This document shows positions 1-12,955 of a stretch of 12,955 nucleotides of DNA, piece after piece. The notes below the pieces were generated by a model. That model ran no database searches, was not told the DNA's origin, and was given only the letters and a program-made list of their open reading frames with translations. The number at the start of each line of letters is the position of its first letter. The first letter of the stretch is position 1. A program made the position numbers and the translations under genes. This DNA is from J088 sp003695505 [NCBI: Candidatus Dadabacteria bacterium] (lineage in GTDB: Bacteria; J088), in assembly GCA_003695505.1 (NCBI GenBank), contig RFIY01000032.1, positions 1-12,955 on the forward strand, given 5' to 3'.

Positions 1-1026
1 ACCACGCGCCCGGAAGATGTCACTGCCGTTCGCGATCCCCGCGACTGGCATCAACTGATCGATCGCCTCAGGCGCCCCCCCGATGGGCGCTGGCGCGGCT
101 TGTTCCTGACGTTCGAGGCCTGTTGTGCCGCCGGTGGCATCGATGGCCCATCACCGCCATCGGACTGGGGCGCAGCGGGGGCGACGTGGACCGGCGCACT
201 CGGAGAAGAACCCATCGACTGGCAGGCGTTACGCGCGAACTGGGAGGTCTGCATCGATCAGCCGACCTACAGGCAGCGGTTCGATCTGCTTCAGCAGGCA
301 ATCCGCGCCGGAGAAGTGTACCAGTTAAATCTGACCGTGCGTGCCCGGGCATCCGCCGCTGAGGCTCAGACAGCAGTAGTGCCTCCGATAGCGCCCGCAG
401 CCGGACGGCTTTGCCTGCCCGATGCGGGCCTGAACCTGATCAGCCACAGCCCGGAGTGTCTGCTCGAACTGGATGGCCTGGGTGCGGTTGTCAGTCGTCC
501 GATCAAGGGCACCTGCAGCGACCCCACCATGTTTTCGCAACTGCGGACGAGCGCCAAGGAACAGGCCGAGCACACGATGGTCGTCGATATGGCGCGCAAT
601 GACCTGGGACGAATCTGCCAGCCCGGCACGGTGCGCGTCAGTCCGCGCTGCGCACCACTGGATCTGCCGTACGCGACACACATGGTCAGTGATGTGCGTG
701 GACGCCTGAGGAACGGTGTGGGCGTCGCGGATGCGTTGCGCGCTGTCCTGCCCGGAGCATCCGTCACCGGAACACCGAAGATCCGGGCCTGTCAGATGAT
801 TGCCGAACTCGAACAGATGCCGCGCGGTCCCTACACAGGCATCCTGGGTGCCATTTTGCCGGATGGTCGCGCATTTTTCTCGCTGTTGATCCGTACCGCG
901 TGGCGTGACACCGACGGTAACTGGTGGTATGGCACCGGCGGCGGCATCGTCGCCGACAGCGACTGCGACGCCGAGTATCAGGAGCTGCTGCTGAAGCTGC
1001 ACCCTGTGCGCGGGGCAACGGGATGA
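1..1026 (+). CDS. pabB: Aminodeoxychorismate synthase component I (PabB), 5'-truncated by the window edge
   Basis: The reading frame is open from base 1, so the first visible 341 residues lack the true N-terminus. This is the chorismate-binding subunit that aminates chorismate to 4-amino-4-deoxychorismate in p-aminobenzoate and folate synthesis, normally with ammonia from PabA. Visible family signatures, in order, are YQLNLT, SPECLLEL, PIKGT, MVVDMARNDLGRI, ASVTGTPKIRA and a glycine-rich GTGGGIV near the C-terminus. PIKGT (lysine codon 505-507) distinguishes PabB from anthranilate synthase TrpE, which has PIAGT; in PabB this lysine is reported to attack the substrate. The stretch between YQLNLT and SPECLLEL is short and alanine/proline rich, so this looks like a compact PabB. 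The stop overlaps the next start as ATGA, implying translational coupling to the lyase-like gene. The family call is firm; PabB rather than TrpE rests on PIKGT and the neighbour. Confidence 0.93.
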   Translation, partial: TTRPEDVTAVRDPRDWHQLIDRLRRPPDGRWRGLFLTFEACCAAGGIDGPSPPSDWGAAGATWTGALGEEPIDWQALRANWEVCIDQPTYRQRFDLLQQAIRAGEVYQLNLTVRARASAAEAQTAVVPPIAPAAGRLCLPDAGLNLISHSPECLLELDGLGAVVSRPIKGTCSDPTMFSQLRTSAKEQAEHTMVVDMARNDLGRICQPGTVRVSPRCAPLDLPYATHMVSDVRGRLRNGVGVADALRAVLPGASVTGTPKIRACQMIAELEQMPRGPYTGILGAILPDGRAFFSLLIRTAWRDTDGNWWYGTGGGIVADSDCDAEYQELLLKLHPVRGATG

Positions 1027-1859
1027 AACAGCCCGAGCATCTGTACTGGGACGGACGGTCGCTCATCCCGGTTCGGGAGCCTCCGACACCGCATGTGATC
1101 GATTCCTTCGTTGTCGAAGCAGGGGCCGTTCGTGGCGGAGCGCTGCACATCGCGCGATTCTCCCGATCCGCTCGGGCGCTATGCGACCTTACGGAGGCGC
1201 GACTCACCCGGTTTACCCGTGCGATTGTGAAATACCTGCCCGGACGGACGGCGTTCGTACGGCTTGGCGCGGACGTGGAGGGGCAACTGACCCTCTGCCT
1301 GCGACCGCTGCCTCCCTCCCCCCCGTCGGTTGCGTTGTGGGTCGGTCACGCAGACGAGCGACGTGAGCCACTGCACAAAGGGCCGGATCTGATCCTGTCG
1401 GCAAACCTCCGCGACGCCGCATCCGACCACCGATGCCACGCCGGTGTGTTTTGCGACGTCACACCCTTCGCAACAGAGCTGATCGAGGCGGACTACGCGG
1501 CGCTGGTCGGCATCATTGACGGACACCTGATTCATTCGGCGAACCCACGTCGTCTGCCGTCTGTGACCGAGCATCTGCTGCGCAGATGGGCAGCGGAATA
1601 CGGCATGCCCAGCACGGCGGACCGTCTGACGCCAGAGCTGTTATGCAGCGGCCCATTCTGGCTCGTCAACGCGCGCATTGGCGCCGTTCCCGTCACCGAA
1701 CTTGTTGTGGGAGACGACGCTGCCCGGCCGCTTCCTCTGGCACCAGAACGCACCAATGAACTGCGGCGCTGGCTGTCTCGACTCGCGCAACCCGTCGATG
1801 CAGAAACGTGGATCGAGGCCGCACGCGGGAACACGGACACGGTGATACAATCAAACTAG
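1023..1859 (+). CDS. pabC: Class IV aminotransferase-fold PLP enzyme, probable 4-amino-4-deoxychorismate lyase
   Basis: The 278-residue protein starts at ATG 1023, overlapping the pabB stop by four bases; the open frame extends further upstream but only inside pabB. The N-terminal DSFVVEAGAVRG...LHIARF pattern and the KGPD motif fit the divergent class IV aminotransferase branch often encoded beside PabB. Lys119 in HKGPD is the expected PLP Schiff-base lysine. Glu155 in LIEADYAA aligns with the glutamate that contacts the PLP ring nitrogen, and WLVNARIGAVPVTE near residue 213 matches the family's C-terminal substrate-loop region. PabC converts aminodeoxychorismate to p-aminobenzoate and pyruvate, so the context suits the assignment. 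The usual E-x-x-x-[ST]-N motif is weakened to E-A-D-Y-A-A, and the usual GVTR reads SVTE. Exact substrate is therefore inferred from fold and neighbour rather than from a textbook motif set. A D-amino-acid or branched-chain aminotransferase is the less likely alternative. Confidence 0.75.
   Translation: MKQPEHLYWDGRSLIPVREPPTPHVIDSFVVEAGAVRGGALHIARFSRSARALCDLTEARLTRFTRAIVKYLPGRTAFVRLGADVEGQLTLCLRPLPPSPPSVALWVGHADERREPLHKGPDLILSANLRDAASDHRCHAGVFCDVTPFATELIEADYAALVGIIDGHLIHSANPRRLPSVTEHLLRRWAAEYGMPSTADRLTPELLCSGPFWLVNARIGAVPVTELVVGDDAARPLPLAPERTNELRRWLSRLAQPVDAETWIEAARGNTDTVIQSN
1846..1851 (+). promoter_or_regulatory. Candidate extended -10 promoter for gcvTHP
   Basis: TACAAT is preceded by TG and one base (TG at 1843-1844), giving an extended -10 element at the very end of the pabC-like gene. 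No good -35 hexamer lies 16-18 bases upstream, which extended -10 promoters can tolerate. Transcription would begin near 1858 and leave a leader of about 90 bases before the gcvT start. Confidence 0.4.
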
Positions 1860-1867
1860 AGCGCCCG

Positions 1868-1880
1868 TTGGTCAGACCAA
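1868..1880. promoter_or_regulatory. Perfect palindrome, candidate GntR/FadR-subfamily operator upstream of gcvT
   Basis: TTGGTC-A-GACCAA is a perfect 6+6 inverted repeat with one central base. It matches the general FadR-subfamily GntR pattern TnGTnnnACnA and closely resembles the ATTGGTnnnACCAAT sites known for PdhR. It begins about 10 bases after the transcription start predicted from the extended -10 element, a position that suits repression. The regulator is not encoded in this window, so the assignment is inference from site shape and location. Confidence 0.45.
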
Positions 1881-1945
1881 TCGCGCCGCGACCGCGTGTC
1901 GTCGTGCCAGCACCCTTCCTCAACATCCTCAGTGGAGTAGACGAC

Positions 1946-3013
1946 GTGAGTGATTCCTTGCGCACTGTCCTTTACGACCGTCATGTCGCCCTGGGCGCAC
2001 GGATGGTTCCGTTCGCGGGCTGGGAAATGCCTGTGCAATATACCGGCGTCAAGGCCGAGCACACGGCCGTTCGCACCACCTGCGGTCTGTTCGATGTGTC
2101 TCATATGGGCACAGTTCTCCTGCAGGGCGGTCGCGCCACGGAAGCACTCGAACGACTGACCCCGTGGCCGATGAGCAAACTGAAACCGGGTCGCGCCCGC
2201 TATACGGTGATGCTGAACGAAGCCGGGGGCACCGTTGATGACCTGATCGTCTACCGCCGCGGCAACGAGGACTGGTTCGTGATCTGGAACGCCGCCAATC
2301 ACCAGAAGAACCTGGACTGGACCGCCCCGATACTGACCGAATACGGGGTTACCCTGGAGGACCTGACAAGCGACACCGCTCTGATTGCCTTGCAGGGCCC
2401 CGACTGGCATTCGGTCTGGGAACAAGCCCTTCCGGGTGCCGCCTTCCCGGACAAACGCTTCACATTCACGGAGCACGATGGCATGCTCATCGCGCGCACC
2501 GGCTACACGGGTGAAGACGGCGTCGAGATCTGGTGTCCGAATGCCCGCGCCATTGAACTGTGGGATCGCCTGATCGATGCCGGCGCGACGCCCTGTGGCC
2601 TTGGCGCACGCGATTCCCTGCGCATCGAAGCCGGGCTTCCCCTCTATGGGCACGAGCTGTCCGATGAGATTGGCCCGATCGAAGGTGGCGTCGGGTTTGT
2701 TGTCCACAAGGATCACCACGGTTACATTGGCGAAATGGCATTGCAGCGAGATCCCCGGCGCTGTCTGGCCGGCGTCCGAATGACCGGGCGAGGCGTTCCG
2801 CGAGAGGGTTATCCCGTTCTGACACCTGATGGCGAAACGATTGGTGCCGTTACGAGCGGGAGCTACTCACCGATACTCGACACCGGCATTGGGCTGGCAC
2901 TGGTTGACCGAAAAAAATCGGGTTATGATGGAACCTCTCAGGCTGTGGCCGTCGAGATCCGCGGACGCTCGTTCGACGCGGAGCTGGTGGTGCCGCCGCT
3001 GCACAAAAACTGA
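1946..3013 (+). CDS. gcvT: Glycine cleavage system T protein (aminomethyltransferase)
   Basis: This 355-residue protein takes the aminomethyl group carried by the H-protein lipoyl arm and, with tetrahydrofolate, releases ammonia and 5,10-methylene-tetrahydrofolate. Family signatures are the N-terminal [24 protein letters not shown] stretch (quoted in parts: LYDRH at 9-13, [10 protein letters not shown] at 23-32), FDVSHMG at 49-55, [10 protein letters not shown] at 94-103 with the catalytic-region Asp98/Asp99, [13 protein letters not shown] mid-protein and [17 protein letters not shown]. Length is close to the usual 360-370. The frame is open from 1808, but GTG 1946 is preferred: GGAG at 1934-1937 lies eight bases upstream and the family N-terminus begins right there. 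It is the first gene of gcvT-gcvH-gcvPA-gcvPB, 86 bases after the pabC-like gene, with a candidate promoter and operator in between. Confidence 0.96.
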
Positions 3014-3053
3014 GTCCATTCGGACGCAAAACAACCGAACCCTGAATCCTCGC

Positions 3054-3059
3054 GAGGAG
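3054..3059 (+). promoter_or_regulatory. Shine-Dalgarno site fixing the gcvH TTG start
   Basis: GAGGAG lies eight bases before TTG 3068, the only start that gives a normal H-protein N-terminus (IPKQLRYTKEHEW). The strong site supports use of the rare TTG codon. Confidence 0.8.
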
Positions 3060-3067
3060 CAAGAACG

Positions 3068-3457
3068 TTGGAAATCCCGAAGCAGCTTCGCTACACGAAA
3101 GAACATGAGTGGGCCCGAATCGACGAAGATGGCACTGCCCTGATCGGCGTGACCGAATATGCGGTCGAGGAACTCGGGGATGTCGTATTTCTGGAATTGC
3201 CCGAAGTCGGTGACGAGGTCAGCCAGGGTGCGACATTCGGCACTGTCGAAAGTGTCAAGGCGGTCGCGGAACTGTATGCTCCATTGACGGGCGAAGTCAC
3301 CGAGCGCAACGAGGATCTGCTGGAAGCGCCGGAAACGCTGAATGAAGGCCCCTACGAGGAAGGCTGGCTGATCCGCATCTCGATCGACAACGCGGATGAA
3401 GTCGATGAGCTGATGAGCGCCGACGAGTACCAGGCTTACCTCGAAACGCTCGACTGA
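3068..3457 (+). CDS. gcvH: Glycine cleavage system H protein (lipoyl carrier)
   Basis: At 129 residues this is the normal length for the small lipoylated shuttle protein that carries the aminomethyl intermediate between the P and T proteins and presents dihydrolipoate to the L protein. RYTKEHEWARI at residues 8-18 is the typical N-terminal signature. The lipoyl site is ESVKAVAELYAP, with Lys64 the predicted lipoylation residue, followed by GEVTERNEDLLEAPETLN. The start is TTG, supported by GAGGAG eight bases upstream. It sits 54 bases after gcvT and 34 bases before gcvPA, in the usual T-H-P order. No dihydrolipoyl dehydrogenase or lipoate ligase gene is seen here, so the L protein and lipoylation enzymes must be encoded elsewhere. 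Confidence 0.97.
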   Translation: MEIPKQLRYTKEHEWARIDEDGTALIGVTEYAVEELGDVVFLELPEVGDEVSQGATFGTVESVKAVAELYAPLTGEVTERNEDLLEAPETLNEGPYEEGWLIRISIDNADEVDELMSADEYQAYLETLD

Positions 3458-3491
3458 TCAACGCACTTCCCCTCACCCAGGGAGCAATTTC

Positions 3492-4820
3492 GTGAGCTAC
3501 TTTCCCGGGCCAGACGCGCCGGATGCCCGCGCGATGCTTGACACCATTGGCGTCGAAGATGTCGACGCGCTGTTTACATCGATTCCAGAGTCCCTGCGAC
3601 GTCAGGCCGCCATCGACCTGCCCGGCATCCCCGATGAAGCCGACCTTGTCGCGTATATGCGCGAGCGCGCCGAACGCAATCGGACGGTACTGGACGCCAT
3701 CAGCTTTGTCGGCGGCGGAGCTTATGCCTATCCACCGGTCGCGGCAGCGCTGTATGCCATGTCGCGCGGCGAGTTTCTGACCGCGTACACCCCCTATCAG
3801 CCGGAGATTGCACAGGGCACTCTGATGGCAATCTTCGAGTTCCAGACCTGGGTCGCCGAGCTGACTGGACTGGATGTCGCGAACTCATCGATGTACGATG
3901 GTGCAACAGCACTGGCCGAAGCAATCCTGATGGGGCTGCGCGTGCGACGCAAGGCGCGCACGGTTGCCATTTCGGCGGGTCTGCACCCCGCGGTTCGCGC
4001 CGTCGTGCGACGCTATCTGGCCGGGCAGCAGGATCTGCAACTGATCGAGCTGCCGCTCGACGCCTCCGGTCGCACCGACCTGGATGCCCTGCCCGCCTCC
4101 GACACGCCCAGAATTGTCGCGCTTGGCTACCCGAATGGCTACGGCGTCATCGAAGACATCAGCGCGGTACGCACGGCGCTCGATGAGCAGGATTTTCTGG
4201 TGACGCATACGCCCGACCCGCACGCCTGGCTGCTCCTCGCCTCACCCGGATCCCTTGGGGTCGACGCCGCGGTCGCCGATGGTCAGCCGTTCGGTGTGCC
4301 CGTATCCTTCGGCGGACCGTCGCTGGGCATGTTCGCAACGCGGCAGGCCTATGTTCGCCAGATGCCTGGGCGACTGTGTGGACGCACGACCGATGCACAG
4401 GGACGCACCGGCTATGTACTGACGCTCAGTACGCGCGAACAGCACATTCGCCGCGAAAAAGCGACCAGCAATATCTGCACGAATCAGGGCGTCATCGCGC
4501 TCGTCGCGACAGTAACGATGAACGTACTGGGTCCAGCCGGCCTGCGCGAACGAGCACTTGCCGCGGCCCGCAACGCGCGTCGCCTCGAGCGCATCCTCGT
4601 CGACGCCGGACACACGCGGCGATTCGACGGAACCTTTTTCAACGAATTCGTCATCGACCCGTCCCGTCCGGACCTCTGGTCATCCCTGATCAATGCAGGC
4701 ATTCAGCTCGGCGTCCCCCTCAGCAAGTATCTGCCAGGGGACGACGGTCTGCTCGTTGCGGCGACGTCGTGGCTGGACGACAGCGCATTTGACCGGCTTA
4801 GTCAGGAGTGTGCGCGATGA
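3492..4820 (+). CDS. gcvPA: Glycine decarboxylase (P protein) subunit 1, split form
   Basis: This 442-residue protein is the N-terminal half of the P protein in organisms where glycine decarboxylase is a two-gene alpha2-beta2 enzyme. It lacks the PLP lysine, which lies on the other subunit. Signatures are FVGGGAYAY at 72-80, SRGEFLTAYTPYQPE at 91-105, IAQGTLMAIFEFQT at 106-119, NSSMYDGATALAEA at 131-144, and a late REQHIRREKATSNICTNQ stretch typical of P proteins. The GTG start is preceded by AGGGAG at 3479-3484, seven bases upstream. The stop overlaps the gcvPB start as ATGA, consistent with the two subunits being made in equal amounts. Length agrees with other split P1 subunits, so this is a natural split and not a frameshift of the fused ~950-residue form. 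Confidence 0.96.
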   Translation: MSYFPGPDAPDARAMLDTIGVEDVDALFTSIPESLRRQAAIDLPGIPDEADLVAYMRERAERNRTVLDAISFVGGGAYAYPPVAAALYAMSRGEFLTAYTPYQPEIAQGTLMAIFEFQTWVAELTGLDVANSSMYDGATALAEAILMGLRVRRKARTVAISAGLHPAVRAVVRRYLAGQQDLQLIELPLDASGRTDLDALPASDTPRIVALGYPNGYGVIEDISAVRTALDEQDFLVTHTPDPHAWLLLASPGSLGVDAAVADGQPFGVPVSFGGPSLGMFATRQAYVRQMPGRLCGRTTDAQGRTGYVLTLSTREQHIRREKATSNICTNQGVIALVATVTMNVLGPAGLRERALAAARNARRLERILVDAGHTRRFDGTFFNEFVIDPSRPDLWSSLINAGIQLGVPLSKYLPGDDGLLVAATSWLDDSAFDRLSQECAR

Positions 4821-6289
4821 GTGACTTTCCAGGAACGACCGGCCTGATCCTCGAAGAGCCGATCCTGTTCGACCTGCCTGGAGACCCGGATGCCGGACTC
4901 GATCCGGCCGATGTTCCGGAAGATCTGGCAGAGGTCCCGCTGCGACAGGCACCACTTGGCCTGCCAAATGTCGCCGAGTATCGTGTCGTGCGACACTACA
5001 CGCGCATTTCTCAGTACAACTACGGCATTGAGAGCGGTCTGTTCCCGCTGGGATCGTGCACGATGAAGCATAACCCGCGCGTCAACGAGCTGCTCGCAGC
5101 ACTGGATGGCTTCGCCTGGCTGCATCCGGAAGCCCCGGAGCAGTGGAGTCAGGGCGCGCTCCAGGTCGCCGTGGAACTCAATGAGGCACTGCAGGCGATT
5201 ACCGGCATGCAGGACTTCACACTGTTGCCGGCTGCCGGCGCGCACGGAGAATTCACCGGCCTCTGCCTGATCAGTGCCTATTATGAAGCGCGCGGCGAAC
5301 TCGACCGGCGCCGCAAGATCCTGATTCCCGAAACCGCGCACGGAACCAATCCGGCTTCAGCGGCTCTGGCGGGCTTCGAGGTCGTCAACCTGCCCCCGCA
5401 GCGTGGAGCAGTGCTGCAGCCCGACGAGATTCTGCCTTACCTCGACGATTCCGTCGCCTGCCTGATGTTGACGAACCCCAACACGCTCGGCGTTTTCGAA
5501 TCCCATATCGAAGCAATCGCCGAGCGCCTGCATGAACTCGATGCGTTCCTGTACTGCGATGGCGCGAATTTGAACGCCATCATGGGCAAGGCACGACCCG
5601 GCGATTTCGGTGTCGACGTGATCCACCTGAACCTGCACAAGACCATGTCAACGCCACATGGCGGCGGTGGCCCCGGCTGTGGCCCCGTCGGCGTTTCCGA
5701 GCGGCTCGTCGACTTCCTGCCGGGCCCCAGACCGGTACGGCAGGGCGATGGATTCTCCTGGGCTACGCCTGCGCAGGCCATCGAGCCGGTCAAGCAGTTT
5801 TATGGACACTTCGGTATGTTTGTCCGCGCGCTTGCCTACATCCGCCGGCTTGGCGGCGAAGGCCTGCGGCGTGCCAGTGAGCGAGCCGTTCTGAATGCAA
5901 ACTATTTACGCGCTCGCCTGGCTGACACCTTCGAACTGCCGTTCGATGATCCCTCACTGCACGAAGTCGTCTTTTCCGACAAGCGTCAAAAAATGCACGG
6001 CGTCTCGGCGCTCGACATCGCCAAAGGCCTGATTGATCGGGGTTTTCACCCGCCGACGATCTACTTCCCACTGGTCGTGTCAGGCGCATTGATGATCGAG
6101 CCGACCGAATCGGAAGATCAGGCGACGCTGGATCAGTTTGTTGCCGCGATGATCGACATCGCAGAGCAGGCCGCATCGGGTGGCGCGGATGCGCTGCACG
6201 ACGCCCCGACGCGCAGCTTCCGCGGGCGGCTCGATGAAGCCACCGCCGCGCGCAAACCCATCCTGCGCTGGACACCGGCCGATGAATGA
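4817..6289 (+). CDS. gcvPB: Glycine decarboxylase (P protein) subunit 2, PLP-binding
   Basis: This 490-residue protein is the PLP-bearing subunit that decarboxylates glycine and loads the remaining aminomethyl group onto lipoyl-GcvH. Signatures are LFPLGSCTMKHNPR at 75-88, LPAAGAHGEFTGL at 137-149, IPETAHGTNPASA at 170-182, MLTNPNTLGVFE near 217-228 and LHKTMSTPHGGGGPGCGP at 273-290, with Lys275 the predicted Schiff-base lysine. GTG 4808 is also in frame, but GGAG at 4804-4807 abuts it; ATG 4817, nine bases downstream of that site, is the better start. It overlaps gcvPA by four bases at its start and cutA by eight at its end, so all three are probably co-translated. The C-terminal ~30 residues, ending KPILRWTPADE, resemble the end of other P2 subunits. 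Confidence 0.96.
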   Translation: MSDFPGTTGLILEEPILFDLPGDPDAGLDPADVPEDLAEVPLRQAPLGLPNVAEYRVVRHYTRISQYNYGIESGLFPLGSCTMKHNPRVNELLAALDGFAWLHPEAPEQWSQGALQVAVELNEALQAITGMQDFTLLPAAGAHGEFTGLCLISAYYEARGELDRRRKILIPETAHGTNPASAALAGFEVVNLPPQRGAVLQPDEILPYLDDSVACLMLTNPNTLGVFESHIEAIAERLHELDAFLYCDGANLNAIMGKARPGDFGVDVIHLNLHKTMSTPHGGGGPGCGPVGVSERLVDFLPGPRPVRQGDGFSWATPAQAIEPVKQFYGHFGMFVRALAYIRRLGGEGLRRASERAVLNANYLRARLADTFELPFDDPSLHEVVFSDKRQKMHGVSALDIAKGLIDRGFHPPTIYFPLVVSGALMIEPTESEDQATLDQFVAAMIDIAEQAASGGADALHDAPTRSFRGRLDEATAARKPILRWTPADE

Positions 6290-6614
6290 CGGCACGGACA
6301 TCTGTGTTGCGTTGGCCAGTGCGCCAGATCGCCGCGTGGCCGAGCGCATCGCGTCGACGATCGTCGAAGAGCACCTGGCCGCCTGCGTCAACATCGTCGC
6401 CGGAATCGTCAGCATTTATCGCTGGCAGGATACGATGCATCGCGAACCCGAAGTGCTGCTTGTCATCAAGACGACCTGCGAAGCATTCGATGCCCTGTCC
6501 CGCCGCATCAGCGAGCTGCACCCCTACGATATCCCCGAAGTACTGCAGCTCCCGGTGCAAAATGGTCTGACAGATTACCTCGGGTGGGTCGCCGGCGAGG
6601 TCTCAGTCGGCTGA
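6282..6614 (+). CDS. cutA: CutA-family divalent-ion tolerance protein
   Basis: A 110-residue member of the trimeric, PII-like CutA family, close in size to Escherichia coli CutA (112). Landmarks are the N-terminal strand ICVALASAP, LAACVNIVAGIVSIYRWQ at 32-49, EVLLVIKT at 57-64 and HPYDIPEV at 80-87, the family's most recognisable motif. CutA was linked to divalent-metal (copper) tolerance in E. coli, but its molecular role is not settled. ATG 6282 lies inside the last codons of gcvPB (8-base overlap) with no strong Shine-Dalgarno site, so it probably depends on translation from gcvPB. A second ATG at 6286 is out of frame. The 3' end overlaps the convergent bolA gene by 12 bases. Family membership is firm; a link to glycine cleavage is only positional. 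Confidence 0.93.
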   Translation: MNDGTDICVALASAPDRRVAERIASTIVEEHLAACVNIVAGIVSIYRWQDTMHREPEVLLVIKTTCEAFDALSRRISELHPYDIPEVLQLPVQNGLTDYLGWVAGEVSVG

Positions 6615-6917
6615 CCGCGCTCCCGCACAATCTGGTGTCTGGTTCGCCTGAGGGCGCGCAGCCCATTCTCGCGGCGTCACGGCACGGACGGACAGCGCGT
6701 GAATGGCGTTCCGCAATTGCTCATCCAGGACCTTGTAAACGGCCCGGTGCCTGGCCACCCGTGACAGACCTTCAAACGCACCACTGACGATCGTCACGTT
6801 CCAGTGCGTCTCCGATCCCGGTGGTACATGGTGCTTGTCGCTGTCGTTGACCAGAATCAGTTCCTCCGGTTCAAATTCGGCCTCAAGCCGCTGACGGATC
6901 GTTGTCTGCAGACTCAT
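6603..6917 (-). CDS. bolA: BolA-family protein
   Basis: A 104-residue BolA-family protein. BolA proteins have a KH-like class II fold, partner monothiol glutaredoxins in Fe-S handling and, in E. coli, act as a DNA-binding regulator of stress morphology and biofilm. The core is clear: IRQRLEAEFEPEEL at 7-20, HWNVTIVSGAFEGLSRVARHR at 38-58 (quoted here as HWNVTIVS and GLSRVARHR), VYKVLDEQL, AIHALSVRAVTPREW at 71-85. The frame opens 14 codons earlier, but ATG 6917 has GGAGGAG (complement of 6925-6931) seven bases upstream. The last ~19 residues after TPREW are an extra polar tail with no family counterpart, and they reach into the end of cutA. The first 35 bases overlap the end of the diguanylate cyclase gene, so bolA is the last gene of the terC-cyclase-bolA unit. 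No partner glutaredoxin is encoded nearby. Confidence 0.93.
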   Translation of the reverse strand: MSLQTTIRQRLEAEFEPEELILVNDSDKHHVPPGSETHWNVTIVSGAFEGLSRVARHRAVYKVLDEQLRNAIHALSVRAVTPREWAARPQANQTPDCAGARSAD

Positions 6918-8091
6918 GCGAATACTCCTCCGTGTCGGTATTGTCCGGAACCGGTGCACGCTCCTCGACGACGCGGTTACGCCCCTGCTCCTTGGCGCGG
7001 TACATCGCCGCGTCGGCGCGTCTCAGCATCGCATCAATGCCGTCACCGGGACACCATTCAGTGTAGCCAATACTGACAGTAACCGAATCCGCCAGGCTCG
7101 TCAGTTGCTCCGCGACGGCGGATCGCACACGCTCCAGGATCTGCCCGGCCTCATCCGCGCTCGTATCGGGTAGTACGATCAGGAATTCCTCTCCCCCCCA
7201 GCGGCCAAAACTGTCGCGGGCACGCAGCCGTCCGTGCACGACCCGTGAGAAATCGCGCAACACCCTGTCCCCGGCAGCATGACCGTAGCGATCGTTGATC
7301 CGCTTGAAGCGGTCGAGATCCGCGATGGCCAGCGCGAATCCCTTTCTCGTTCGCTCCGCATCCGCAAGACGAAGCTCCAGTTCACGCTGCAATGTTCGAC
7401 GATTGGGCAGCCCCGTCAGAAAATCTTCGGCCGCAAGACGCTGGAGCTCCTGATTCTGAAGCAGAACCTTCGCTGCATACAGCTCCCGAATCAGTTCGAA
7501 CACCGCAAAAAAGACCGCGATCGCCAGGAACGCAAACGCTGATTCGCGAACGGCCGTCGCCGGCAATGGATCGCTCCCCCATCGGATATACGTCTGGTAA
7601 GCCATCGCAAGCGTTCCCGCAAAGACCACCAGCCAGATCAACCCCTCGCGCAGCCCGACAAAATAGAAGGCAACCGGAATAAATGTCAGCGCCCAGACCA
7701 GATAGTACGCGTCACGAAAATAGAGGATGCCAAGAAAGCTGGTTGAAAAAAGCACGAATGCCGCGAGCACGCTCAGGCGCCCAAACCAGCGATCGGCGCG
7801 CATTCGAACCAGCAGCAGCGTCCCGCCCAGGGCAATGATGGCGTACACGGCAAGCAGCACGGCAAGCTCAGTACGACCATCCGCCCAGAAAAAGGCAGCC
7901 TCAGACGACAAGAACAGGCTGGACAGAATGCCAAAAACCTGAAAAAACGTACGACGCGCCGCCCGGTCCACCTGTTCGAATCCGCCGTCCTCCAGCGCCC
8001 GCGCCAGTTCTTTGCCGCCAGGCAACCAGGGCAAAATCCGCAGGCGTCTGCGAATGAGGCGTGCCTCGCGCGGCTCGTCGGTCGTGACCAT
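6883..8091 (-). CDS. Membrane diguanylate cyclase (six predicted TM helices plus GGDEF domain)
   Basis: This 402-residue protein should make the second messenger cyclic di-GMP from two GTP at the inner membrane. About six hydrophobic segments lie near residues 48-68, 76-95, 104-123, 129-146, 149-167 and 183-202, followed by a short coiled-coil-like linker (~203-222). The GGDEF domain has all key parts: DFLTGLPNR at 223-231, DLDRFKRIND at 258-267, HAAGDRVLR at 271-279 and the active-site GGEEF at 299-303. RARD at 290-293, five residues before GGEEF, is an intact product-inhibition I-site. No EAL domain is present. The N-terminal sensor is not one I recognise. The frame opens at 8157, but ATG 8091 avoids overlap with terC and has GAGG five bases upstream on the minus strand. 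The stop lies 35 bases inside bolA. A likely active, feedback-inhibited enzyme, with unknown input signal. Confidence 0.93.
   Translation of the reverse strand: MVTTDEPREARLIRRRLRILPWLPGGKELARALEDGGFEQVDRAARRTFFQVFGILSSLFLSSEAAFFWADGRTELAVLLAVYAIIALGGTLLLVRMRADRWFGRLSVLAAFVLFSTSFLGILYFRDAYYLVWALTFIPVAFYFVGLREGLIWLVVFAGTLAMAYQTYIRWGSDPLPATAVRESAFAFLAIAVFFAVFELIRELYAAKVLLQNQELQRLAAEDFLTGLPNRRTLQRELELRLADAERTRKGFALAIADLDRFKRINDRYGHAAGDRVLRDFSRVVHGRLRARDSFGRWGGEEFLIVLPDTSADEAGQILERVRSAVAEQLTSLADSVTVSIGYTEWCPGDGIDAMLRRADAAMYRAKEQGRNRVVEERAPVPDNTDTEEYSHESADNDPSAA
6925..6931 (-). promoter_or_regulatory. Shine-Dalgarno site for bolA inside the cyclase gene
   Basis: On the minus strand GGAGGAG lies seven bases before ATG 6917. 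It sits inside the last codons of the upstream diguanylate cyclase gene, so ribosomes finishing the cyclase would pass over and could re-initiate at bolA. It excludes the upstream in-frame ATG at 6959 as the likely start. Confidence 0.75.
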
Positions 8092-8098
8092 CGCTGCC

Positions 8099-8851
8099 TC
8101 AGGCTGCCTCGTCCGGGAACCGCTGTAAGTGCACGGTATGAGCGGCATGGCGGTCACGGATACGCATGTTCAACAATTCGACCAGAACCGAGAAACCCAT
8201 TGCAAAATAGATGTACCCCTTGGGAATATGATGGCCAAATGCTTCGCCGATCAACGACACACCAATCAGGATCAAGAAACTGAGCGCCAGCATTTTGAAG
8301 GTCGGGTGACGTTCAATGAATCGGCCGACCGCACCCGACCAGGCCATCATGATCAGTACGGCCACAATCACCGCCGTGATCATCGTCGGTAAATGCGACA
8401 CCATGCCGACCGCCGTAATCACCGAATCAAACGAAAAGACCACATCGAGCGCCATGATCTGCACGAGAACGAGCGCCAGCGACGGCGGAACCGTTGCAGC
8501 TTCGGCATGTTCGGTACCCACGAGATTGGCGTGAATCTCGAACGTACTTTTCGCCAGGAGAAACAATCCGCCCCCGGCCAGAATCAGATCACGGCCACTG
8601 AACTCGAGTCCGCGCACCGTGAACCACGGCTCGGTCAATCCCATCAGCCAGGACAGTGACAACAACAGGCCAATGCGTGTAAATACCGCCAGACCAAGTC
8701 CACCAAGGCGCGCCGTATTGCGCTGGTGTTCTGGCAGCCGGGATGCCAGAATAGAAATGAAGATGATGTTGTCGATGCCAAGGACGATTTCCAGCGCGGT
8801 CAGCGTCAACAGTCCGATCAGCAGATCAGGATTTGTGAACATGTCAATCAT
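8099..8851 (-). CDS. TerC-family integral membrane protein (YgdQ-like)
   Basis: A 250-residue polytopic inner-membrane protein of the TerC family, closest in pattern to E. coli YgdQ. The family is associated with metal-ion transport, including manganese efflux, and some members with tellurite resistance; substrate cannot be read from sequence. LTLTALEIVLGIDNIIF at 15-31 contains the conserved acidic GIDN motif (Asp27). A second acidic motif, ALDVVFSFDSVITAVGM at 134-150, carries Asp136 and Asp142. SGRDLILAGGGLFLLAKSTFEIH at 85-107 is another family hallmark (key residues RDLI, GGLFLL, EIH). The frame extends to 8917, into aat on the other strand; ATG 8851 or ATG 8842 are the realistic starts, neither with a clear Shine-Dalgarno site. 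It is seven bases before the diguanylate cyclase start and so probably heads that operon. Confidence 0.9.
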   Translation of the reverse strand: MIDMFTNPDLLIGLLTLTALEIVLGIDNIIFISILASRLPEHQRNTARLGGLGLAVFTRIGLLLSLSWLMGLTEPWFTVRGLEFSGRDLILAGGGLFLLAKSTFEIHANLVGTEHAEAATVPPSLALVLVQIMALDVVFSFDSVITAVGMVSHLPTMITAVIVAVLIMMAWSGAVGRFIERHPTFKMLALSFLILIGVSLIGEAFGHHIPKGYIYFAMGFSVLVELLNMRIRDRHAAHTVHLQRFPDEAA

Positions 8852-8870
8852 CGTAGAATGTCGAATCTGC

Positions 8871-8876
8871 GGGAGG
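8871..8876 (+). promoter_or_regulatory. Shine-Dalgarno site fixing the aat TTG start
   Basis: GGGAGG lies seven bases before TTG 8884. The next codons (TDYIVATADP) give a plausible N-terminus, and no ATG or GTG fits before the conserved AYAQGIFPM motif. Confidence 0.75.
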
Positions 8877-8883
8877 CCCGGTC

Positions 8884-9540
8884 TTGACTGACTACATTGT
8901 AGCGACAGCCGATCCACGAATCCGCCTCTTGTCGGATCTGGCCGTCCTGACGCTTCAGGCCTATGCTCAGGGTATCTTTCCGATGGCAGACTCGCGCAAC
9001 GGGGAGCTCGGCTGGTATCTGCCGAAGTACCGTGGCATCATCGAGCCAGAACGATTTCACATTCCACGCAGGCTTGCCAAGACGATTCGGCAGCGCCGTT
9101 TTCGCGTAACGGTCAATATCGCGTTTGCCGACGTCATCCGCGCCTGCGCCGAACCGGCTCCGGGCCGGGAAGACACCTGGATCAGCGACGAAATCATTGC
9201 GCTCTATCAGGAGTTGCACGATACCGGCTTTGCCCATTCGATTGAATGCTGGCAAGGCGGCAAACTCGTCGGTGGCCTGTACGGTATTGCCATACGCGGG
9301 CTGTTCGCCGGAGAAAGCATGTTTTCGCGCACGCGCGATGCCAGCAAGGTCGCCCTGGTCGAACTGGTACAGCGACTCAGAGCGGGCGGCTTCACACTGC
9401 TGGACACGCAATTTTATACCCCGCACCTGGGGCAGTTCGGCGCGATCGAAATCCCGGATGAAGCGTATCAGGTTCGCCTGCAACGCGCATTGATGACAGA
9501 TGCGCGCTTCCCGGTCGGATCGCTATTCGACGGGGGGTAA
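8884..9540 (+). CDS. aat: Leucyl/phenylalanyl-tRNA--protein transferase
   Basis: This 218-residue enzyme transfers Leu or Phe from aminoacyl-tRNA to proteins with N-terminal Arg or Lys, marking them for ClpS/ClpAP degradation in the bacterial N-end rule pathway. Conserved features are LQAYAQGIFPMA at 24-35, GWYLPKYRGIIEP at 43-55, DTWISDEII at 97-105, YQELHDTGFAHSIECW at 108-123, GGLYGIAIRGLFAGESMFSR at 130-149, DASKVAL at 152-158 and TLLDTQF at 171-177. Asp174 and Gln176 match the catalytic Asp186/Gln188 pair of the E. coli enzyme. The start is TTG with GGGAGG seven bases upstream. The GWYLPKYRGIIEPERFHIPR-type segment, in place of the enteric LWWSPDPRAVL, is the variant common in alphaproteobacteria. 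It is divergent from terC and convergent with greB. Confidence 0.94.
   Translation: MTDYIVATADPRIRLLSDLAVLTLQAYAQGIFPMADSRNGELGWYLPKYRGIIEPERFHIPRRLAKTIRQRRFRVTVNIAFADVIRACAEPAPGREDTWISDEIIALYQELHDTGFAHSIECWQGGKLVGGLYGIAIRGLFAGESMFSRTRDASKVALVELVQRLRAGGFTLLDTQFYTPHLGQFGAIEIPDEAYQVRLQRALMTDARFPVGSLFDGG
8896..8901 (-). promoter_or_regulatory. Candidate -10 element for the terC operon, inside the aat coding region
   Basis: On the minus strand this reads TACAAT, about 45 bases before the terC start. No convincing -35 hexamer lies 16-18 bases upstream, so support is weak. If real, the promoter of the minus-strand operon lies within the first codons of aat. Confidence 0.25.
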
Positions 9541-9580
9541 CCCCCCCACTCTTGCGTCGCACACCTGTGGCGCGCGCAAG
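9532..9580. terminator. GC-rich hairpins between convergent aat and greB, possible bidirectional terminator
   Basis: Six G's ending aat face seven C's across the TAA stop codon (9532-9547). Just after, CTTGCG (9551-9556) pairs with CGCAAG (9575-9580), with inner CGC/GCG pairing around an ACCT loop. No T-tract follows on either strand, so factor-independent termination is uncertain. The 46-base gap serves both converging genes. Confidence 0.3.
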
Positions 9581-9586
9581 CAGCAT

Positions 9587-10117
9587 TCAGAGTGTCGGAC
9601 GGAACTCCCAGTCCGCAAATGCTTCAACGACGCGCCGCCATACTGGTCCACCATATTCGATCGCGAGCAATTCATACTCGATTTCTCCGGCCGGCAACTC
9701 GACGTCGACGATGTCGCCGACCCGCTTGCCCCACAATGCGCGCGCCACCGGTGATGAAGCCGAAATCAGACCGTATTCCGGATCCGATTCCCCTTCGCCG
9801 ACGATCGTCCAGGTGCGCGTACGTCCGTTGTCGTCTTCAACGGTCACCGTTGCCCCGAAACCGACCCGATCGGACTGGATATCGCACGGATCCACGACAC
9901 GTACCCCGTCCAGCAGGCGACTGAGGTAACCGAGTCGCTTGTCGATCTGGCGGAGCTTCTTGCGTCCGTAAATGTACTCGGCATTCTCGGATCGATCCCC
10001 TTCCGCAGCAGCATCGGCAACGCGCTGCACGGTTTCCGGCCGCAGCACCTTCCAATAGTAGTCATACTCCGCCTGCAGTCGGCGAAAACCGAGACTGGTC
10101 AGGAGTTTTTCAGCCAC
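9587..10117 (-). CDS. greB: Transcription elongation factor GreB
   Basis: This 176-residue protein rescues backtracked RNA polymerase by stimulating cleavage of the nascent RNA 3' end. The N-terminal coiled coil covers about residues 10-72, with FRRLQAEYDYYWKVLRPE at 11-28 typical of GreB. The acidic tip is GDRSENAEYIYGRKKLRQID at 40-59, where Asp41 and Glu44 correspond to the residues that reach the polymerase active site. The C-terminal FKBP-like domain includes YGLISASSPVARALWGKRVGD at 115-135 (core SSPVARALWGK) and PAGEIEYELLAIEY. It lasts ~20 residues beyond the usual IEY end. Two in-frame GTGs compete; GTG 10117 has GGAGGT nine bases upstream, whereas for GTG 10126 the same site is one base away. 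It overlaps the end of the arsC-like gene by 19 bases, so the two are probably co-transcribed. Confidence 0.95.
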   Translation of the reverse strand: MAEKLLTSLGFRRLQAEYDYYWKVLRPETVQRVADAAAEGDRSENAEYIYGRKKLRQIDKRLGYLSRLLDGVRVVDPCDIQSDRVGFGATVTVEDDNGRTRTWTIVGEGESDPEYGLISASSPVARALWGKRVGDIVDVELPAGEIEYELLAIEYGGPVWRRVVEAFADWEFRPTL

Positions 10118-10443
10118 TGTGTCCACACCTCCGGCACATAGCCCACGGTCGCCCGCGGTCCGCAGCGCACAATCGGTGTGCGTGTAATGCCAGGCCAGCG
10201 CTGCAGCGCCTCCACCCAGTCCACCGAGAGGTAGCGCAGATTCTGCTTTTCGAATTCTTTGCCCTCCCGATCGATAATTGCGTCAATACCGCCAACCTGC
10301 GCAGCAATTTTGCGGATCTCGCCAGGGGTCAGCGGCTTTTGCCGCACGTCGCGCGTATGCGGCCGCACGCCGCGTTCCTTGAAAAACCGCTCGGCCTTTC
10401 GTGTATCTGCGCATTTCCTGCTGCCGATTACAATGATATCCAT
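10099..10443 (-). CDS. ArsC/Spx-like thioredoxin-fold protein (ArsC family (seleno)protein type)
   Basis: This 114-residue protein has the ArsC/YffB-like thioredoxin fold. IVIGSRKCADTRKAERFF at 4-21 places one candidate active cysteine, Cys11, in a C-x-x-T-R-K-A-E-R-F-F setting. TPGEIRKIAAQVGG at 39-52, EGKEFEKQNLRYL at 60-72, and RTPIVRCGPRATVGYVPEVW at 88-107 with the expected Arg88 complete the pattern. This matches the branch annotated as ArsC family (seleno)protein more than true arsenate reductases, which have other motifs around the cysteine. Here residue 11 is encoded by TGC, an ordinary cysteine. No ars genes are nearby, so arsenate reduction is not supported; a thiol-redox role is a guess. 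ATG 10443 is used; no good Shine-Dalgarno site is visible. It overlaps greB at its 3' end and is divergent from the DUF192 gene. Confidence 0.8.
   Translation of the reverse strand: MDIIVIGSRKCADTRKAERFFKERGVRPHTRDVRQKPLTPGEIRKIAAQVGGIDAIIDREGKEFEKQNLRYLSVDWVEALQRWPGITRTPIVRCGPRATVGYVPEVWTQWLKNS
10127..10132 (-). promoter_or_regulatory. Shine-Dalgarno site deciding the greB start
   Basis: Minus-strand GGAGGT lies nine bases before GTG 10117 but only one base before GTG 10126, so it supports the downstream start. It lies inside the arsC-like gene. Confidence 0.65.
10429..10434 (+). promoter_or_regulatory. Candidate -10 element for the DUF192 gene
   Basis: TACAAT on the plus strand lies about 40 bases before the likely DUF192 start, within the first codons of the opposite-strand arsC-like gene. 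No good -35 hexamer is visible at 16-18 bases, so this is tentative. Confidence 0.3.
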
Positions 10444-10474
10444 ACGCGACAATCCGATGCAGAGGGGGAGAATC

Positions 10475-10852
10475 TTGTCAGATCCACATGGCCATCCGCT
10501 GGCCATTGCGGCAGGTTCCATGATAACCGGGGCGACGACAACGCTGGAGATTGCCGACACTTTCCGCAGCCGTTTGTTGGGCCTGATCGTCGGGCCGCCG
10601 CGTCCACTCCTGTTACTTGATACGCGGATGATTCATACCTTTGGTATGCGTTATCCCATCGATGCGTGTTTTTTGGACCGTGATGGAGACCCTCTGCACA
10701 CGGTTCGCCATCTCCGTCCAAAGCGCATCGCCGGTCACCTTCGAGCACGACACACTCTCGAAGTTCCTCCGACCATCTCAGAAGCGACGTTGCAACGCCT
10801 GCTGGATCTGGCCAGGCGCGAGATCCGTGCGCGTTCACAGCGAATGACGTGA
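10475..10852 (+). CDS. DUF192 family protein (short cytoplasmic form)
   Basis: A 125-residue DUF192 protein of unknown function. The diagnostic core is LEIADTFRSRLLGLI at 24-38, where the family usually has AxTxxxRxxGLM, and IHTFGMRYPIDACFLDRDG at 53-71, the aromatic/PID segment that defines the domain. DUF192 proteins are often secreted, but no signal peptide is visible here, so this copy is probably cytoplasmic. TTG 10475 is preferred because the purine-rich AGAGGGGGAG (10461-10470) ends four bases upstream. ATG 10457 would add six residues, with no Shine-Dalgarno site; the frame is open further back but only inside the arsC-like gene. It is divergent from arsC-like by 31 bases and upstream of the large lipoprotein gene by 139 bases, with a separate promoter for the latter, so it is probably monocistronic. 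Confidence 0.82.
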   Translation: MSDPHGHPLAIAAGSMITGATTTLEIADTFRSRLLGLIVGPPRPLLLLDTRMIHTFGMRYPIDACFLDRDGDPLHTVRHLRPKRIAGHLRARHTLEVPPTISEATLQRLLDLARREIRARSQRMT

Positions 10853-10991: not shown

Positions 10992-12953
10992 ATGCATAAC
11001 GCCTCTTCCTCGTTTGTCCGTAACCTGGTGCTTCTGGTAATCAGTGGCCTGGCGATTGCCTGTGGAGACTCCGGAACAGGTGGTTCCGCGGCCCCACCGC
11101 CAGCAGGCGGAACTGGATCCGGCTCGGGATCTGGTACGACCGTACAAGCCACGGTGACCGTCAGTATATCCTCTGCAACCGCACCGGCGGACGGCGCCAC
11201 GCCGATCACCGCAACCGCAGTCGTGACCCTCTCAGACGGTTCGGTTGTCGCTGACGGCACCACCGTCACGTTCACGACCACCCTGGGAACCTTCGTCGGT
11301 TTTGGAACGGCAACAGCCCAGACCACCACAACAAATGGCTCGGCAAGCCTGGCACTCGTGTCCTCCAGTCCGGGGGATGCTCTGGTTCGTGCAGCGACAT
11401 TCGGCTCCCTGGGCAGCGCCAGCGTCTCGTTCGTCAGCACCGGCAGTGGCGGTGGCAGCGGTGGCGGTGGCAGCGGTGGTGGGGGCGGTTCCGGCGGCAC
11501 AAATGTCTCGTTCAACGGGACACTCCTCCTGTTTTCTGACAGCAATCTTGTGGATGCTGGCGTGCAAAATACGGTCACGCTCTCCGGATACGCGAAAAAC
11601 CCCAATCACACGCCATATGCCGAAACGGGCCCTGTGGTCTGGACGGTTACCGGTCCAGCCAGCGTGCCGCCTGCGGACTGGGGAATCATTTCAGCATCGT
11701 CACAGGTCGCCAACGGCACCTTTTCCGGCACCTGGAACGCGGCCGAACAAGCGGGCAGGTACCTGCTGATCGCCTGGCTTGGCAGCGTCACCGACTATGT
11801 GTTTATCGATGTCATCGATCGTTCCCCGGCCAGCGTCAGCCTGAGCCTGTCGCAGTCCGCCGTTGACGGCGACGGCGCAAGCACCGTAGACCTGACCGTC
11901 ACGGTGCTCAATTCGTCCGGAACGCCAGTTGCAGATGGCACCGATGTATTGCTGACGTTGAATGGCGTTGGTCTGCTCGACAATACCGCGCTGCAAACAT
12001 CTGGAGGAATCGCAAAGGCCGTCTACACGGCGCCGTCCACCAATGTCGGCGCGTCTGTCTCGATTACGGCCGCAGTTGGCGCACTGACCGATACCGCCAC
12101 GCTCACCGTAAATCCCGTCTTCGCTACGGGCCCATTCTCCGGTGCGCTGCTGCTCTCTGCGGATCCATTGATTACAGACGCCGGTGCATCGAATACCGTA
12201 AGCCTCTCCGGCTTCGCGAAAAACCCTGACAACACACCGTATGACGGTAACGACCAGGTCGTCTGGACGGTCACGGGTCCAACCGGCGTACCCTCGATCG
12301 ACTGGGGGATCGTCGATCCGCCCTCCAGCGTGAACAACGGAACCTTTTCAGGCACCTGGAATGTCGCGGAACAGACCGGCAAGTACCTGCTGATGGCGAC
12401 GCTTGGCAGTGTGACAGACTATGTGTTCATCGACGTCGTTGACCGCTCGCCGGCATCGGTCGCGCTCAGCGCATCCCCAACAGTACTTGATGCAGATGGG
12501 ACGAGCACATCGAACCTGACCGTCACGGTACTCGACAACTCGGGGAGTCCGGTACCGGATGGCACCGGCGTACTGTTGACGCTCAGTGGTGCTGGTGTAC
12601 TGAATGATACCGCCCTCCAGACATCCAACGGCGTCGCGACTGCCGTGTACACGGCGCCGAGCACAAGCGCCAACAGTACCGTTACCATCACGGCATCGGC
12701 CAGCGGCATCACGGCCAATGTGACCCTGACCATCAACGGCGTCGCACCGCCGGCTCCGTTTTCAGGCACGGTACTGTTGTTCTCGGATGCGAATCTGGTG
12801 GACGCCGGCGCACAGAATACCGTCAGCCTGTCTGGTTTCGCCAAGAATGCCAACAACACTCCCTATGACGGCAGCGACACGGCTCGCTGGTGCGTAACTC
12901 GCCCGTCTGGTATACCCGCATCTGACTGGGGTAGCGTCGATCCGCCTGCCTGA
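10992..12953 (+). CDS. Surface lipoprotein with Ig-like domains and a 208-residue repeated module (C-terminus uncertain)
   Basis: This 653-residue protein begins with a type II signal peptide: a hydrophobic core (NLVLLVISGLAI) and lipobox LAIAC, giving Cys24 as the lipidated residue. Gly at +2 argues for outer-membrane sorting. A Gly/Ser/Pro linker follows (~25-50), then a Big_1/invasin-like Ig domain (~50-150) with the PADG...DGTTVTF pattern, a glycine-rich linker (151-169), then modules at 174-381, 382-589 and 590-653. Each full module is 208 residues without gaps. The first half (F-[NS]-G...DAG..NTV.LSG.AKN...TPY, WTVTGP, DWG, NGTFSGTWN.AEQ.G.YLL, GSVTDYVFIDV) is a fold I do not recognise. 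The second half (SPASV...LTVTVL..SG.PV.DGT.VLLTL...ATAVYTAPST) is Ig-like. No cysteines occur after the lipobox until an odd one in the broken third copy. An adhesin or surface-scaffold role is inferred. The TGA lies two bases from the window end. Confidence 0.85.
   Translation: MHNASSSFVRNLVLLVISGLAIACGDSGTGGSAAPPPAGGTGSGSGSGTTVQATVTVSISSATAPADGATPITATAVVTLSDGSVVADGTTVTFTTTLGTFVGFGTATAQTTTTNGSASLALVSSSPGDALVRAATFGSLGSASVSFVSTGSGGGSGGGGSGGGGGSGGTNVSFNGTLLLFSDSNLVDAGVQNTVTLSGYAKNPNHTPYAETGPVVWTVTGPASVPPADWGIISASSQVANGTFSGTWNAAEQAGRYLLIAWLGSVTDYVFIDVIDRSPASVSLSLSQSAVDGDGASTVDLTVTVLNSSGTPVADGTDVLLTLNGVGLLDNTALQTSGGIAKAVYTAPSTNVGASVSITAAVGALTDTATLTVNPVFATGPFSGALLLSADPLITDAGASNTVSLSGFAKNPDNTPYDGNDQVVWTVTGPTGVPSIDWGIVDPPSSVNNGTFSGTWNVAEQTGKYLLMATLGSVTDYVFIDVVDRSPASVALSASPTVLDADGTSTSNLTVTVLDNSGSPVPDGTGVLLTLSGAGVLNDTALQTSNGVATAVYTAPSTSANSTVTITASASGITANVTLTINGVAPPAPFSGTVLLFSDANLVDAGAQNTVSLSGFAKNANNTPYDGSDTARWCVTRPSGIPASDWGSVDPPA
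11442..11498 (+). repeat. Glycine/serine linker repeat in the lipoprotein gene
   Basis: Nineteen consecutive Gly or Ser codons, built largely from GGTGGC and AGCGGT units, separate the first Ig-like domain from the 208-residue modules. Such low-complexity DNA can change length by slippage in whole codons. Confidence 0.75.
11511..12134 (+). repeat. 624-bp coding repeat, copy 1
   Basis: Codes residues 174-381 of the lipoprotein. It aligns with copy 2 without any gap, and the period is exactly 624 bases. Best-preserved segments encode NGTFSGTWN, GSVTDYVFIDV, DRSPASV and AVYTAPST; differences are concentrated at third codon positions. Confidence 0.9.
12135..12758 (+). repeat. 624-bp coding repeat, copy 2
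   Basis: Codes residues 382-589. Aligned without gaps to copy 1. Compared with copy 1 it has NTPYDGNDQ in place of HTPYAETGP and WGIVDPPSS in place of WGIISASSQ, features also found at the start of copy 3. Confidence 0.9.
12759..12953 (+). repeat. 624-bp coding repeat, copy 3, cut off
   Basis: Codes residues 590-653, about the first third of a module, then hits TGA at 12951. It mixes features of copy 1 (LLFSDANLVDAG) and copy 2 (NTPYDG, DPP). Its last ~25 residues degrade: ARWCVTRP where the others have VVWTVTGP, then DPPA and stop where copy 2 continues DPPSSVNNGTFSG. Confidence 0.85.
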
Positions 12954-12955
12954 GT

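Follow-up and report, generated by a model that had tools for sequence, protein, structure and literature searches.

The window analysed here is the complete contig RFIY01000032.1 (12,955 nucleotides; C341 in our numbering) of the draft genome GCA_003695505.1 of J088 sp003695505, a Candidatus Dadabacteria bacterium. Its last open frame (10992-12953, plus strand; the contig ends two bases further on, at 12955) encodes 653 residues as read and would be the beginning of a long surface protein. This protein is likely a chain of immunoglobulin (Ig)-like beta-sandwiches that forms a lipid-anchored stalk, in which a diverged Ig-like domain, A, alternates with a domain of the Invasin_D3/Big_1 type, B. 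The frame is built of modules of 208 residues, and each module probably consists of these two domains in series. Domain A most likely belongs, as a diverged member, to the Ig-like domains of the intimin/invasin/Big_1 kind, and the hidden Markov models (HMMs) of the families searched miss it.

The repeat is exact in length. Its period is 208 residues or 624 bases without any gap, and a DNA repeat finder returned three copies spaced 624 bases apart. At an offset of 208 residues, 172 of 295 residues (58%) are identical and at 416, twice that distance, 36 of 87; all other offsets in the scanned ranges (190-229 and 400-429) stay at or below 14% identity. The array comprises A1 (11511-11834, residues 174-281), B1 (11835-12134, residues 282-381), A2 (12135-12458, residues 382-489), B2 (12459-12758, residues 490-589) and a third A domain, A3 (12759-12950, residues 590-653), of which the initial 64 residues are read before the contig ends; all are on the plus strand and a complete A has 108 residues. 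A1 and A2 share 73 of 108 residues and B1 and B2 57 of 100; A3 is identical to A2 at 41 of its 64 positions and is matched by the A profile with 120.4 bits. A preliminary description, made from the sequence without database searches, had reported the gap-free 624-base period, which is borne out, and two modules, which is right for the complete copies but one short in that a third has begun. As this partial A3 extends from 12759 up to the end of the contig, the array is open-ended.

Selection keeps the protein of the repeat, as had been suspected from its third codon positions. Identity between A1 and A2 is 0.78, 0.80 and 0.44 at codon positions 1, 2 and 3, and nonsynonymous changes (dN) are far rarer than synonymous ones (dS): dN 0.25 and dS 1.68 for A1-A2, 0.34 and 2.04 for B1-B2, 0.27 and 1.60 for A2-A3, and dN 0.30 with saturated dS for A1-A3, the dS values being rough since they are near saturation. 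From the codon-position identities and these rates it follows that the copies are old and that the protein has been maintained. As the array grew, A and B would have been duplicated together, as one unit. It should be mentioned that the end of A3 (12882-12955) looks different from the part before it: only 8 of 23 residues agree with A1, compared to 28 of 41 in the preceding part, and it is somewhat less like A2 as well (13 of 23, compared to 28 of 41). The same stretch carries the only cysteine of the protein apart from Cys24, and a TGA closes the frame two bases short of the contig end. This could reflect decay or a poor contig end.

Judged by its Pfam scores, B is an Ig-like domain of the Invasin_D3/Big_1 type, in agreement with the earlier assignment of the second half of the module to the Ig-like domains. 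The whole protein scores 50.7 bits with Big_1 (cut-off 34.9) and 48.1 bits with Invasin_D3 (cut-off 33); at this whole-protein level the cut-offs are passed, whereas most of the domains fall short singly. B2 alone reaches 40.2 bits with Invasin_D3 and lies above the cut-off of 33, whereas B1 alone remains below both cut-offs (Invasin_D3, 22.4 bits; Big_1, 21.3 bits). A further domain of this type, B0 (11154-11435, residues 55-148), precedes the first module; it is the best Big_1 stretch of the protein and on its own, with 34.7 bits, ends just below the Big_1 cut-off of 34.9.

Domain A, when scanned alone, has no family match in Pfam or PHROGs. Against Pfam up to an E value of 10, A1, A2 and A3 gave no match to Big_1 and no family beyond DUF1203, whose match to A1 (E 0.28) is put down to chance. 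The only PHROGs matches of A alone were at E 0.13 (A1) and 0.26 (A2). In NCBIfam the whole protein was the sole query; it gave three weak matches, none of them above its cut-off. A profile of A found no trustworthy stretch in the PDB sequences; matches to polyubiquitin and antibodies (E 0.005-0.02) were rejected, as no single stretch was significant. When the whole protein was compared with the PDB sequences, single-chain variable antibody fragments and other proteins matched on the Gly/Ser linker and were discarded; GH2 galactosidases, listed with these rejected matches, aligned over B2 and once over the end of A2 (E 0.0006-0.009).

By its predicted structure, A is most likely an Ig-like beta-sandwich of the intimin/invasin kind. 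AlphaFold2, given an alignment of only three sequences (the three copies), returned a best model with a mean predicted local distance difference test score (pLDDT) of 88.8 and a predicted template modelling score of 0.78; this model and its fold matches underlie the assignment of A2. It is a sandwich of eight strands (4-10, 13-15, 21-29, 41-47, 58-61, 70-77, 82-90 and 93-102), all-beta except for a helix of three residues. Foldseek matched the model to 37 PDB chains at E<=0.001, with the surface-layer (S-layer) protein SbsC and GH2 beta-galactosidases at the top; the Yersinia adhesins InvE and InvD, alpha-2-macroglobulin and about ten antibody fragments are also in this set, and five viral models in BFVD were matched at E<=0.001. 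With VIA-align, A superimposed on a GH2 domain (6qub; Z 12.5, 2.1 Å, 98 residues), on intimin (6tqd, chain range 557-655; Z 12.0, 1.8 Å, 93 residues), on FdeC (4e9l; Z 11.4, 2.6 Å, 99 residues) and on InvE (5n40; Z 11.3, 2.5 Å, 105 residues). Structural matches that differ by no more than 1 count as ties, and therefore the data name a broad fold, not a single nearest protein. The predicted structure thus has what defines an Ig-like beta-sandwich: about 100 residues, seven to eight strands and superposition over the whole domain. In the one good model of the whole module, the strands of A and B follow in the same order. Over 190 residues the module can be aligned with invasin (Z 13.2), at a root mean square deviation of 8.5 Å, and therefore the angle between the domains would differ from that in invasin.

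A second line of computation ties the A alignment to Big_1-type domains. Fifty outside domains of this type were collected in three HMM rounds seeded with B0, B1 and B2; they come from seven loci in four genomes, were accepted at a loose domain E value of up to 0.1, may include near-duplicates from overlapping loci, and 11 of the 50 belong to one locus, L101. Against all 53 Big_1-type domains, B0-B2 included, the A alignment scored 38.0 over 97 columns with a probability of 87.5%, compared to at most 13.4 for 100 column shuffles and 3.8 for reversed A. As L101 had been picked by the A profile itself, the test was repeated with subsets; the 53-domain test used one hhalign option more, so scores are comparable only within each of the two settings. 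Without the protein's own B domains (50 domains) the score was 32.9 (probability 86%; best of 60 shuffles 18.1), and 29 slices taken as negatives from other proteins of the window, a few of them from a pabC frame with stops, reached at best 15.2 over the sets of 39, 42 and 50 domains. As single sequences, A1 and A2 matched the 50 outside domains with probabilities of 82% and 77%. With at least 39 domains, the predicted tie of A to Big_1-type domains is above the controls, but modest.

Several results weigh against placing A, and the protein as a whole, in this way. Without L101 (42 domains) the score drops to 27.7 (probability 64%; best of 60 shuffles 16.3), and without both L101 and B0-B2 (39 domains) to 24.0 (38%; 17.1). 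Against B0-B2 alone, A scores 14.3, within the shuffles (best 15.7); against B1 and B2 alone it scores 15.3, above the shuffles (14.0) but short of the 16.0 that the highest negative slice reached. Taken singly, the incomplete A3 is not matched to the outside domains (probability 1.8%). AlphaFold2 gave good models of A in only two cases out of five (pLDDT 88.8 and 88.0; the others 65.6, 63.5 and 42.3), and of the whole module in only one of five (81.6; the remaining four below 60). None of B0, B1 and B2, when scored singly in the genome search, attains the Big_1 cut-off. Finally, the contig includes neither the distal end nor any adhesive domain.

The failed comparison with the protein's own B domains disposes of a recent origin of A by copying of B. 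Pairwise, three of the four combinations of A1 and A2 with B1 and B2 beat most of 300 shuffles (5, 6 and 5 shuffles were as good); for the fourth, A1 with B2, 133 of 300 were as good, and for A1 and A2 against B0 164 and 254 of 300. From these pairwise scores together with the failed profile test it follows that any split between A and B would be old.

What does this mean for the first half of the module, in which the preliminary description saw a domain matching no known family and the strongest candidate for something undescribed? The missing family match holds for A alone in Pfam and PHROGs. That A is undescribed in kind is not supported, given the predicted sandwich as in intimin and invasin. 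The proposed structure prediction gave an Ig-like fold at pLDDT 88.8, with three of five models poor, and the proposed profile comparison gave a tie to Big_1-type domains that is absent towards the protein's own B domains. A known kind of domain is therefore recognised by fold and, modestly, by profile, yet with no score that reaches a Pfam gathering threshold.

The N-terminus looks like that of a lipoprotein. A putative lipoprotein-type signal peptide with a lipobox ending at Cys24 (10992-11063) is followed by a Gly/Ser/Pro-rich spacer (11064-11153), and a second, Gly/Ser-rich linker with a tandem 15-bp repeat (11446-11479) lies between B0 and A1 (11439-11501). The hydrophobic signal ends in the lipobox-like L-A-I-A-C, and residues 14-24 match a PROSITE-like lipobox pattern. 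Arg10 is the only positive charge ahead of the lipobox; lipoprotein signals classically carry a positive charge earlier than this, and that rule is not obeyed here. The outer-membrane beta-barrel that stands at the N-terminus of inverse autotransporters (type Ve, intimin/invasin) was not found: residues 1-54 are taken up by signal, lipobox and Gly/Ser spacer, and no barrel family is among the five Pfam matches of the protein. The protein would probably be exported by Sec, lipidated at Cys24 and retained at the outer membrane; the flexible Gly/Ser spacers would lift the Ig-like chain off the surface, and the chain would act as a stalk presenting a distal end encoded beyond the contig. Fibrillar adhesins combine a stalk with an adhesive domain, and stalk-like domains are present here.

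With the distal end outside the contig and with SbsC S-layer domains and GH2 enzymes besides adhesins among the fold matches of A, the protein might instead be a lipoprotein that is secreted or stays in the periplasm, or else a structural protein of a coat-like kind. We regard this as unlikely, since InvL, the nearest precedent found that has a lipid anchor together with invasin-like Ig domains, is a surface adhesin (PMC9245377).

Another possibility concerns the part played by A within the chain. In the models, the loop between strands 41-47 and 58-61 has ten residues in A and about three in B, and W44, V46, T47, P49, P53, D56, W57 and G58 are identical in all three A copies. This loop could serve to brace the structure or to bind a ligand. 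If A were the binding domain, the W-x-V-T-x-P-x3-P-x2-D-W-G loop (A residues 44-58) would bind a ligand, B would be the spacer and the binding sites would be repeated along the chain; a sharp line cannot always be drawn between the domains of the stalk and those that adhere (PMC9210967). On the other hand, in three copies of one protein conservation is indistinguishable from common descent, and a short helix near a proline has also been described for intimin D00, a juncture domain (PMC7718877). We consider a binding role of A rather improbable. Slightly more doubtful still is a bolder form of this idea: A would be a separate, unrecorded Ig-like family in fixed pairing with an Invasin_D3-type domain, and the W-x-V-T-x-P...D-W-G loop a predicted binding site present once per module and many times per chain. 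That A represents a genuinely new family with no relation to Ig-like domains, the resemblance lying in the model only, is very improbable: A has no match in Pfam or PHROGs, no trustworthy match among the PDB sequences, nothing that clearly links it to its own B domains and no close relative in the collections searched with it, but the confidence of its model, the fold matches and a profile link to Big_1-type arrays that covers most of A speak against this reading.

The preliminary description had proposed to count the copies in relatives. None of the genomes sampled yielded a close relative of A, and the other contigs of its own genome held no further copy; only one Big_1-type array was informative. 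Searches with A gave no confirmed relative in viral contigs (three stretches in one search, 54 in another), in genome contigs (two 8-residue patterns, 54 stretches) or in phages; the pattern scans among them demand near-exact matches of 7-8 residues and say little about distant relatives. With A1-B1-A2 as query there was no match in plasmids at E 1e-5, and five of 59 genomes matched, one of them its own and the other four mainly in B, among the matches listed. A2-B2 had three weak matches in phages, all of them in B and none in A. The A profile matched in 0 of 10, 2 of 369, 0 of 50, 4 of 386 (its own included), 1 of 251 and 0 of 398 genomes, in sets that partly overlap.

Six of these profile matches lie outside the own genome, and only L101 is informative. 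Three are put down to chance: one (L096) is on the opposite strand of a frame that we take to be TrpD-like, one (L097) within the tail of a presumably FtsZ-like frame and one (L104) in a 287-residue frame that, to the eye, resembles a metabolic dehydrogenase. A fourth, L102, is no more than a short fragment, and the matches that make up L103 are partial and weak. The match in L101 is to one domain of a Big_1-type array and spans nearly all of A (positions 3-99), unlike the other two matches outside the own genome in the domain-wide search of 386 genomes. The open frame at L101 (genome G579) has 3922 residues, that at L003-L013 without L004-L007 (G003) 5077; in the stretches read, both consist of tandem Big_1-type domains. 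A Big_1-like stretch on another contig, C233, of the own genome (L105; 32.7 bits, below the cut-off) was considered as the missing end of the gene and rejected, as it belongs to a different protein. The latter (1396-2877 of L105, G000:C233:5299-6780) has 493 residues, looks secreted and adjoins frames named by eye as glyA- and nrdR-like.

How much these searches can say depends on the sample, which includes no genome of the same order or phylum as the own genome. GreB, encoded in the window, was found at no fewer than 80 loci (at least 80) with a best identity of 58% among the matches listed, and 60 of those 80 genomes were also searched with A. Three of the 80 listed loci have one further window gene each at 31-41% identity (pabB at L029, bolA at L048 and GGDEF at L094), and thus there is no shared gene order; the pabC query of this comparison was an incorrect frame containing stops. 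GcvPB (4808-6289) was matched in 149 of 185 genomes of one proteobacterial class, that of an Acidiferrobacterales genome, with a best listed identity of 53%. As there is no partner of the same order or phylum and GcvPB is at most 53% identical among those listed, close relatives are maybe unsampled, and the own genome may belong to a deep or unsampled lineage. The failure to find relatives of A is weak evidence of absence.

The region upstream (1-10852) holds ordinary housekeeping genes: pabB-like, gcvT, gcvPA, gcvPB, bolA-like, TerC-family, aat, greB-like and Spx/ArsC-like genes according to NCBIfam, several of them below cut-off, together with frames named by eye as pabC, gcvH, cutA, GGDEF and DUF192-like. 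Rfam had no matches in the window at its gathering thresholds.

Altogether, a domain that looks unknown in searches by sequence has been placed through the alignment of its three copies and fold prediction, and a sparsely sampled lineage has contributed a probable lipoprotein-anchored Ig-like chain. Should A turn out to recur as a family, its profile might close gaps in the annotation of fibrillar surface proteins.

Among known systems, the passengers of intimin and invasin (Big_1, PF02369; Invasin_D3, PF09134) share with this protein the HMM matches of B, the tandem chain of Ig-like domains, the predicted fold of A and its modest profile tie to the Big_1 type. They differ at the N-terminus, where neither a beta-barrel nor a LysM family was found here and a putative lipoprotein-type signal stands instead, and in A, which stays below every family cut-off. 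The long Big_1-type arrays at L101 and L003 are likewise chains of Ig-like domains of about 95-100 residues; they are uniform in the stretches read, in contrast to the alternating A-B pairs described here. InvL of Acinetobacter baumannii is a predicted lipoprotein with invasin-like Ig domains, without a beta-barrel and secreted by the type II system (PMC9245377). The present protein is likewise a putative lipoprotein that has such Ig domains and in which no barrel family was found, and it differs by a longer chain of A-B pairs whose end is unsequenced. A similar case to A itself is intimin D00, an Ig domain that HMMER did not recognise, that HHpred suggested and that a crystal structure confirmed (PMC7718877). 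D00 and, by prediction, A are Ig-like domains that HMMER does not see, with a short helix breaking the sandwich. Judged by the chain range matched in 6tqd (557-655), the best intimin counterpart of A is D0, not D00; and D00 is a single domain beside the beta-barrel, whereas A is repeated and alternates with B.
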